A DNA stretch of 64,000 nucleotides from Brugia malayi (Eukaryota; Nematoda; Chromadorea; Rhabditida; Onchocercidae), in the NCBI RefSeq assembly GCF_000002995.4, contig NW_025062477.1:5304649-5368648 (forward strand). The letters run 5' to 3'. The notes under the pieces were generated by a model, which saw only the letters and a list, made by a program, of their open reading frames with translations, was not told where the DNA came from and did no database searches. This document shows positions 10,352 to 13,368 of the stretch, piece after piece. Made by a program: the position numbers and the translations under genes. Within the stretch, counting starts at the first letter, position 1. Each line of letters begins with the position of its first letter.

Positions 10352-12007
10352 TTACTGTTTCCACTGTAAGAGATGACGAAGAAATGTATGAAAACGGCTT
10401 GTTGGAGTAGAATGCTTCGTCAATTCGATAGTGGTCAATAGACTTTTGATGCCAACTGGATAACTACTAAATTGCTTGCTATATTGATTACAATCAAGGA
10501 ATTTTGAGGAAGTTTTAGAATCCCAAGTTTTTTTGATTTCTTTTTCAAAAACCTCTCGACCAAACCTCATCCTCAAATATGTTTCATTTTCTTATGTAAT
10601 GAATACCCGCTAAATTAATAGCATCACAGTGAAAATTCAAATGGATTTGGTTCTGAGATTTTTCTCAGACACTTAGAAAGATTCAGAATCAAATAAATTT
10701 TTGTTGGCACAAGAAACAACTATAAAAACAACATTAAATTACCTGTTGGCATCATGAATGAGACATTCCTGAAGCACTTCAAAATCAGCTTTGTTCAATA
10801 CATTGGCACATTCGATTACTGGCATTATTCGGTCAATCTTCATTAGAAGTGGTACTTCAATAAGAGATGAGAAATAACGCTGCAAGCCAAACTTTTCTGC
10901 ACATTCAGTAGTAACCGTTGCTATCACCAATAAGCGATTATTCTAGAAAATTTTAGTTTTTATTTTTTTGATAATTAAAATATTACGACTGAGTTAACTT
11001 TTTTCGTTTAATACAGTTGTAGCACATATAGATAAAGAGGAACAGGAATGATGAAGTTTAGAAAATGACTTGCAATTTTATGATAATGGCAAGCCTTATC
11101 TCTTCAGAATGAGGACAAACCTTTGGCCTCATCAAAAATCAACCAAATTTACGTGTACCTTCAACATTTCACCTTTCTTCAAAATCAACTTGACTGTTTG
11201 CAAAATGACATTAGAATAACGATCTCCAACATCGCAATATTCTAAAACCAAAATTCAGAAAATCCACAAACAATCACTTCCTTAACTATTTATTTAGAAA
11301 GACATTAAGCAGAGGAAATGGGTGAAAAATTACTTGTGGGAACTTCAATATCGAGAATAGAATGGAGTCTATTTCGTGTTGCAGTTAAGAGAAAATTCAA
11401 ACGTAACTCCAGCTGGGAGAAGAGGATGAAATGAATTGAATTAAACTTTACAATTAAACAAAGCATCCAAAAATTTACCAATCAAAAGTTCGATACTATC
11501 CAGAAATAAAATGCACTGTGGCAGTTTGATAGCTTCCTCGAAAAGATCAATTAATTTCTCATTTTTTGCTTTCTCATTCAGTTTTAACATATTTTCCGGA
11601 AGACAACTTTTTATAGAAGGAATGCCGGAATTCTTTGCTATTAAAACTGCGAGACATGACTTACCCGTCTTTTCGGCGCCTATAAACATTCTAATCAATT
11701 GGGGGAGTCGATAATTACCATGTTTAAGTATAAAATGTTTGCTATATTTACATATAGTGCTGGATGAAGCGAAATACTAATGAAGGCCATACAAAATTTG
11801 AAAAAGAAAAAACATAGAAAAATGAGCATAAAAGACCATACCTTTTATTAGAAGAGAGAAGGATTTCGATAAATTTGAATTTGATGCCATGGAGCAAAAC
11901 TGTGTTCCATCATCGACAATCTCATTGATTTCATTACTCCAAAAAATAAAATCACCGTTGGTTAAATAAAGCAAAGGTTGGAATCCATCAATTCCTTCAG
12001 CTGAAGT
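10352..12007 (-). CDS. Diverged NSF second-ATPase-domain (D2) paralog segment
   Basis: Five exons in phase: 12,007-11,842, 11,679-11,479, 11,241-11,159, 10,942-10,743 and 10,571-10,352 (TAA), 289 codons plus stop. They match exons 12-16 of the neighbouring NSF gene one by one; the Walker A exon is 201 bases in both. Seen here: linker with EIVDDGTQF, Walker A GAEKTGKS (intact), Walker B-like CILFLDSIELLIG (the residue after the Asp is Ser), DVGDRYSNVILQ matching [26 protein letters not shown] matching [11 protein letters not shown], and a C-terminal SYPVGIKSLL matching YFIGIKKLL. No N domain or D1 domain lies upstream. In NSF, D2 binds ATP mainly to hold the hexamer together. The preceding exon also contains NSDDCMEFELL, close to the NSF D1-D2 linker ([11 protein letters not shown]). 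The frame is open throughout, so this is not an obvious pseudogene. It joins in phase to the FLYWCH exons upstream and may be the C-terminal half of that protein. Confidence 0.65.
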
Positions 12008-12146
12008 CTAAAATTCTCTCCGAATCATTCTCTGAGTCAATTCAAAATTGTATAACTTTTTTGTAGTTATGACAACGATTTTTTTCTGCCTCCATTTAAC
12101 ACGTACCGTTATCTCCTAATATTGGCATCATGTTTCTGGAACATAC

Positions 12147-13368
12147 CAAAAGTTCGAACTCCATACAATCATCTGAGTTAACTCTTTTGAAGATTTTTAT
12201 ATTTGCTTCTTTAAAATTCAACAAAAAAAAAAAAAAACTAACATTCAGTTTTTCCATTCCGGAATTTGCTGAAATTTGCTGTTCAATGCTGGCTGAACTT
12301 ATGCTGGTTTGCAAAAATGATTTTGCAATCATATCAGCTGTTAATATTGCTGTTGTTGTTATTGGACTTGTCGATTTCAGGTGATTAACTGTTGATGAAT
12401 GGATGTCATAATGGGAAATCATATCACTGTATTCTCTTTTCAGACTCTTTAGAATTTCTTCGATTTCTGTAATGAAAAGTCCGGAATTTGAAGTTCAAAA
12501 TTATCCTGCTTATATTTGTAATTTAAATTTCACTGCGTAACTACTTTTACTTATGATAAAATTAGAAGTTATCTCTTATTAGTTAGTTCACCGAAAAGAA
12601 AATAAAAATTTTTGAAATCGTGAAACATTTTCAAAATCTAACGATGTAAATCAAATTTAGAAGTCTTTATAATTTCGTGAAGAAGAGCTTCAAGAGATTG
12701 TGCAGTTTTTTTCGTTAGAACTTTATCACTTGTAGACGATCCATCAAAATGTCGTTTTAAAGCTTTTCGTTGCATTTCAGGTCTCACTAAACTAGATGGA
12801 TGGTTGTGTTGTGTCGTCCGCTTTAAAACCTACATTAAACGTTTCAATTAAAATATTCGAAATTTGATACATCAAAAATTTCCATCTTGATCTTTTGGTT
12901 ACAATAATTCCATGTTCTCTCTAAATTTTACACCTTTCACTGTGGTAAATCAATTAATAATAATAATGAAAATTTTAAAATGGAAAAGGATTTTTTTTCT
13001 ACTCAGTGAAAAATTTTAAAAAAATGATTAAAACATTTCAAAATTTTTTAAAAATTTTCTTAACTTTACCTCATTTGTTGCAGCATCAGTATGTATTCTC
13101 GCATTGCAGGTACCCTTTTTCTCGCATCGCCAAAACTTCTTCTGCCCATTTCTACTCATCTTATCAAAAACATAAAAGTATCCATCATCTTGAAGTTTAT
13201 AACGATGTCGTGTTGTTGTAAGCAAAATAGTTTTACCAGAATCTAAAATATTCATAGTTCATTTTAATGTCAAAAAACAAAAAAAACAAAACAAAAAAAT
13301 CGAGAAAAGTTACGTTCACTATTGTTATCATTGTTATTTTCATAGCGATTGCCATATTCTGAATCCAT
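12147..13368 (-). CDS. FLYWCH zinc-finger protein, N-terminal part of a possible FLYWCH/NSF-D2 fusion
   Basis: Exons in phase: 13,368-13,314 (start MDSEYGNRYENNNDNNSE), 13,242-13,070, 12,829-12,643 and 12,466-12,147, 245 codons in all. Exons 2-3 carry a full FLYWCH finger: RHRYKLQDDGYFYVFDKMS, then KKFWRCEKKGTCNARIH, then the closing histidines in TQHNHPSSLVRPEMQ, so the C2H2 zinc ligands are all present. FLYWCH domains in nematodes (PEB-1, FLH-1/2/3) bind DNA and repress transcription. The rest is Ser/Thr-rich with an alpha-helical stretch (EEILKSLKREYSDMI). The last exon contains a T-run that encodes four Phe; removing it as a 34-base intron would break the frame, so I keep it as one exon. 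The donor at 12,147 is phase 0 and joins in frame to the NSF-D2-like exon at 12,007. Either the protein continues into the ATPase segment, or it stops soon after in an unspliced tail (stop near 12,096). Confidence 0.65.

Follow-up and report, generated by a model that had tools for sequence, protein, structure and literature searches.

The D2 domain of NSF is described as binding ATP tightly and as serving mainly to form the hexamer, in which K631 touches the ATP of the neighbouring subunit (PMC11532144), and it is also characterised as the inactive oligomerisation domain of NSF (PMC12440825). FLYWCH zinc fingers are known from a different setting. In Caenorhabditis elegans, FLH-1 was reported to bind a promoter in a yeast one-hybrid assay (PMC12265568). 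In insects, FLYWCH domains are present in most isoforms of mod(mdg4), and the TTK-type BTB domains are stated to form hexamers (PMC11426971). A description of a FLYWCH and NSF-D2 hybrid was not found in the open-licence literature. Here, such a combination is described for the filarial nematode Brugia malayi, within a window of 64,000 nucleotides that comprises the whole stretch of DNA analysed. Judged from the sequences, we consider it moderately probable that the locus is a chimeric gene, present once in this genome and with annotated counterparts that bring the number of filarial species to at least five, in which duplicated exons for the D2 domain of NSF were joined to a FLYWCH gene and whose D2-like ring would gather the fingers.

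Exon structure and the position of the junction

Splicing of nine minus-strand exons of the window (Table 1) reproduces, letter for letter, the annotated 467-aa B. malayi protein P0002, in a corrected frame of 1,404 bases including the stop codon. An initial annotation of this DNA had placed FLYWCH exons and NSF-D2-like exons on the minus strand, which is borne out by a profile match to PF04500 and a sequence match to the solved NSF D2. Its nine exons, as drawn, do form an open frame of 735 + 870 = 1,605 bases. Two of its splice sites had to be moved. The donor proposed at 12,147 conflicts with P0002, in which the exon ends at 12,243, and the additional 96 bases are missing from all five full-length orthologue models; at the other end of the gene, the orthologue models fit an acceptor at 10,478 or 10,466 instead of the proposed 10,571. 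The 96-base extension (32 codons) scores -0.33 bits per codon. Among 371 equally long pieces of NSF introns, the median is -0.43, the 95% point -0.06 and the highest score 0.09. Its end, NSDDCMEFELL, had been likened to the linker between D1 and D2 of NSF, a similarity that is within chance, as 115 of 500 shuffles scored at least as high as the real segment. With an intron-like segment and no NSF similarity above chance in it, the proposal that the fusion point lies within the last FLYWCH-side exon is not supported.

Based on the orthologue models and the coding score, 12,147/12,007 was rejected as the main splice; the supported junction is 12,243/12,007, and the former is probably wrong. It is kept as a possible isoform in view of P0006, a D2-only model of B. 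timori (269 aa, on a 2,865-bp contig) that starts with MEFELL followed directly by TSAEG, which corresponds to the 12,147/12,007 junction. P0006 leaves room for a minor isoform, or for an independent start, at this position.

The donor of exon 3, GTTAGA, is the same as that of NSF introns 4 and 6. It is overlapped by a stop codon (12638-12643), so that unspliced RNA would encode a 139-aa FLYWCH-only protein, which represents a possible splice switch. The two acceptors of exon 9 (10466 and 10478) are 12 bases apart; the B. malayi model P0002 uses the inner one and the models of B. pahangi, W. bancrofti and B. timori use the outer one, and the resulting longer form of exon 9 is that of P0001, P0003 and P0006. 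An extra 79-base exon at 11,412-11,334 was ruled out, as it breaks the frame.

Table 1. Features of the fused gene and the adjacent NSF gene, in window coordinates; the nine exons are the exon set of P0002, listed from the start codon to the stop codon.
Feature	Position	Strand	Basis or remark
Exon 1 of fused gene	13314..13368	-	start codon at 13368; spliced model equals P0002
Exon 2, bulk of FLYWCH zinc finger	13070..13242	-	PF04500 match; zinc-ligand candidates C58, C64, H84, H86
Exon 3, end of finger and post-finger region	12643..12829	-	spliced model equals P0002; stop codon overlaps donor
Exon 4, lineage-specific linker, residues 139-213	12243..12466	-	coding score; D. immitis identity
Exon-4 extension of the initial annotation (NSDDCMEFELL)	12147..12242	-	judged intronic; possibly alternative exon end or start
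Exon 5, NSF-D2-like half begins	11842..12007	-	boundary in phase 0, as NSF exon 11/12
Exon 6, Walker A (GAEKTGKS) and Walker B region	11479..11679	-	genome search, residue alignment
Exon 7, carries K357, equivalent of NSF K631	11159..11241	-	residue alignment
Exon 8, sensor 1 region (T372)	10743..10942	-	genome search, residue alignment
Exon 9, sensor 2 (GIKS, K437) and stop codon	10352..10466	-	alternative acceptor 10478 adds four residues
AATAAA hexamer	10304..10309	-	42 bases past the stop codon of the fused gene
Intact NSF gene (753 aa in 16 exons, free of internal stops)	15846..22086	-	directly upstream of fused gene; likely source of D2-like half

One gene or two

The unity of the gene was addressed by comparison with other filarial species. 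A query with the fused protein, scored against the 7,990 candidates that had the most words in common with it, returned at least five proteins at E <= 0.001. They come from B. pahangi, B. malayi, W. bancrofti, D. immitis and S. digitata, and each of the five has PF04500 and PF00004 over the Pfam cut-offs in a single chain. The initial annotation had proposed to look for one filarial protein matching both FLYWCH (PF04500) and NSF D2, and five species have it. Its central idea, that a FLYWCH finger and an NSF-type D2 belong to one gene, is thereby upheld by single-protein models in five filarial species, while the junction as drawn is not. When the linker and the D2-like half were used as query (7,996 candidates scored), the same five were among the matches listed, together with the D2-only fragment of B. 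timori; the matches listed for both queries contained no protein of Onchocerca or Loa. The orthologues are without exception gene models, which may in part have been informed by one another.

Alternatively, the locus could hold two neighbouring genes, perhaps in an operon: one for a 139-aa FLYWCH protein, terminated by the stop codon at 12,638, and one, trans-spliced, for a D2-like protein that has its start either in exon 4 or at MEFELL (about 12,164). We regard this arrangement as unlikely. It would agree with the stop codon at the exon 3 donor and with the MEFELL start of P0006, though the latter lies on a 2,865-bp contig. Operons are in use in B. malayi (PMC7704054), and the same source reports non-canonical AUAAAN signals, a role that a TATAAA at 12,201 could fill. 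The five full-length models, however, are all fused. Moreover, no methionine occurs in the S. digitata protein between the first residue of the linker exon and approximately residue 38 of the D2 half; a separate downstream D2 gene would be left without a plausible start there in this species. The methionine that precedes ISHYD in the B. malayi linker is isoleucine in D. immitis and S. digitata. Between 13,499 and 11,850 no AATAAA is found, which counts as weak evidence against two genes because only nearly 40% of B. malayi reads are described as carrying this hexamer (PMC7704054) and because of the TATAAA at 12,201. A shorter FLYWCH-only relative was likewise not found: the FLYWCH half with the linker, searched against proteins of about 117 to 373 aa, gave no match over threshold among 2,069 candidates, a weak negative since no FLYWCH protein at all was returned, not even the finger half of B. 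timori.

Exon 4 scores 0.10 in frame and contains no stop, whereas 205 NSF-intron pieces of that length peak at -0.16; another frame of this exon scores 0.11 but has nine stops. In an alignment of B. malayi and D. immitis, 33 of 73 linker residues are identical. All nine exons of the model score, in frame, above the 95% point (-0.06) of the 32-codon NSF-intron pieces, with exons 1 and 7 being shorter than these pieces. The codon scores of the D2-like exons are below those of the NSF exons, and the last exon, at 0.03, is only slightly above its other frames (-0.03 and -0.04). The fusion of a FLYWCH finger gene with an NSF-D2-like half is probably real.

Conservation of the two halves and probable origin from NSF

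The FLYWCH half matches PF04500 at 4.6e-14 (52.8 bits, cut-off 23.6), and the profile is also over its cut-off in all five full-length proteins. C58, C64, H84 and H86, which we take to be the C2H2 zinc ligands of the finger, are invariant in these five. Between B. malayi and S. digitata, the finger has the highest identity of eight segments (54/65); between B. malayi and D. immitis it reaches 56/65, and D2 exon 6 is higher there (60/67). This strong conservation indicates that the function of the finger has evidently been kept. By sequence, no solved structure matched the FLYWCH half at 1e-3. The 86.8-Mb genome of 139 contigs gave two exon matches to FLYWCH, namely the finger described here and another on the minus strand of contig C1 (L008 4591-4752; G000:C1:440090-440251), which is 43% identical to the fused finger over 42 aligned residues.

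For the D2-like half, the best solved match is NSF D2 (1d2n) at 5.6e-29, covering query residues 13-253 of 258. The positions of the ATP pocket were counted on the 1d2n alignment, with K549, T550, D603, D604 and K708 presumably having the numbers and roles in the NSF D2 pocket that we assign to them. Equivalents of K549, D603, K631, T645 and K708 are kept in six of six sequences, while the equivalent of T550 is Ser and that of D604 is Ser or Gly; K631 and T645 are residues named in PMC11532144. Walker A, the Walker B Asp, the trans lysine and sensors 1 and 2 of the NSF D2 pocket were all found. AlphaFold models built on six-row alignments were poor (mean pLDDT 41.5 and 43.1), and neither the fold nor a ring was confirmed by them.

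The N and D1 domains of NSF are missing from these proteins. CDC48_N, the N domain, gave no match at 1e-3 in P0001 to P0006 and is present in the neighbouring NSF model; the catalytic AAA domain, D1, is not seen in the six either, each having one AAA stretch against two in the neighbouring NSF. The profile of the NSF ATPase lid (PF21964) scores 15.6 bits in the D2-like half, below the cut-off of 27, compared with 45.7 bits in the NSF model. Since the N and D1 domains are absent, the fused protein is predicted not to be a vesicle-fusing ATPase and should not disassemble SNAREs. Five of P0001 to P0006 are named Vesicle-fusing ATPase in UniRef and the sixth (P0004) carries this name at NCBI, while "FLYWCH zinc finger domain containing protein" is also among the public database names. 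With the SNARE-handling N and D1 domains missing, the name vesicle-fusing ATPase is misleading.

The NSF gene next to the locus encodes CDC48_N, two AAA stretches and NSF_ATPase_lid, all over Pfam cut-offs, and the fused gene follows it by about 2.5 kb on the same strand. The five splice boundaries of the D2 region have phases 0, 1, 1, 0 and 2 in both genes (5/5 the same). Two of them share an alignment column, and the last differs by no more than one residue if exon 9 is read from its inner acceptor; the first and fourth, which lie where the alignment is gapped or missing, agree to about three residues. When D2-like exons 6 and 8 were searched against the genome, they matched only themselves and NSF. 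The D2-like half is closer to the D2 of B. malayi NSF (77 of 232 positions identical, 33%, score 345) than to mammalian NSF D2 (70 of 227, score 289, only the matched 1d2n stretch being compared); the worm and mammalian NSF D2 domains agree with each other at 109 of 225 positions. As a complete NSF gene lies directly upstream on the same strand, it is the probable source of the D2-like half, and the shared intron phases and places fit a DNA-level tandem duplication of the last five NSF exons rather than a retrocopy. The D2-like half thus looks like an old partial NSF duplicate that was captured by a FLYWCH gene.

The 33% identity to NSF, together with a codon bias weaker than that of NSF, could also be expected of a decaying NSF fragment that was joined to the FLYWCH gene by gene predictors. 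This explanation is disfavoured and appears very improbable, given that the D2 half is free of stops in the models of five species and in the B. timori fragment, that all six sequences retain Walker A and the counterparts of K631 and K708, and that exon 6 is identical at 51 of 67 positions between B. malayi and S. digitata.

Several further traces of the duplication were sought. The first 213 residues of the fused protein show no NSF similarity above chance (33 of 200 shuffles were as good). Exon 4 was rejected as a remnant of NSF D1 or of the linker in B. malayi, where 162 of 500 shuffles scored as high (115 for the extension, 92 for both together); exon 4 of D. immitis gave a borderline value of 47 of 500, and that of S. 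digitata 144 of 500. No relic of NSF exon 11 or of the sequence around it was recognised in the intron 12,242-12,008, as 218, 284 and 179 of 300 shuffles were as good for three NSF stretches. A comparison of the 3' flanks behind NSF and behind the D2-like half gave no convincing match indicating a duplicated flank (best E 0.084). Transposon-borne capture through terminal inverted repeats was considered as well, and none of 21 weak pairs (70-88% complementary, mostly AT-rich) was convincing. Elsewhere in the window, positions 39146-40657 on the minus strand hold exons of what we take to be an elongation factor 1-alpha gene.

Proposed function and comparison with known systems

The course of events that we favour would begin with a partial duplication in which the last five NSF exons, encoding the D2 domain and accompanied by their introns, landed downstream of a FLYWCH-finger gene. 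An exon of this gene that ends in phase 0 would now be spliced onto the duplicated D2 exons. In the predicted protein, a FLYWCH zinc finger stands at the N terminus and an NSF-D2-like ATPase domain at the C terminus, connected by a linker that evolves fast. Since the pocket residues are kept and the N and D1 domains are missing, we propose that the D2-like domain has been retained as an ATP-dependent oligomeriser of FLYWCH fingers. Most probably it would bind ATP and, like its counterpart in NSF, bring the subunits together in a ring, and such a ring could present several fingers jointly for DNA binding, presumably in the nucleus. We propose only tentatively that the product is a transcription-factor-like filarial protein in which an ATP-bound AAA ring derived from NSF gathers DNA-binding fingers, and whose assembly on DNA would depend on nucleotide binding.

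A product that acts on NSF itself was also considered. The D2-like domain would then join or compete with the D2 rings of NSF and modulate membrane fusion in the cytoplasm, and the finger would serve another purpose. The retained D2 pocket and trans lysine are compatible with this, as is the description of D2 as the oligomerisation domain of NSF (PMC11532144, PMC12440825), but the identity to the worm's own NSF D2 is only 33% and the finger is strongly conserved, which makes such a role improbable in our estimation. Whichever the function, the locus appears to be a clear case of a new architecture that arose through gene duplication and exon joining, in which the parent, the duplicate and the host gene are still adjacent and their intron phases match.

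Compared with NSF/Sec18, the likeness lies in the D2 domain, through sequence homology (5.6e-29 to 1d2n), the five splice phases shared with the neighbouring NSF gene and the lysines of the ATP pocket. The fused protein differs in that N and D1 are absent, the lid profile is under its cut-off, D604 is replaced and a zinc finger is attached. FLH-1, FLH-2 and FLH-3 of C. elegans share the FLYWCH zinc finger with the fused protein, and we know of no AAA domain in them. In insect mod(mdg4), FLYWCH fingers are likewise joined to a multimer-forming domain, which represents an analogy and not homology of the whole; the order of the domains in mod(mdg4) is opposite to that of the fused filarial protein. 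In addition, its oligomerisation domain is unrelated, being a BTB of the TTK type, and its isoforms are described as products of trans-splicing (PMC11426971). Should the D2 half still form rings, filarial nematodes would have put a trafficking module to a new use, that of an oligomerisation tag on a DNA-binding finger, and the BTB-FLYWCH proteins of insects would be a parallel case.
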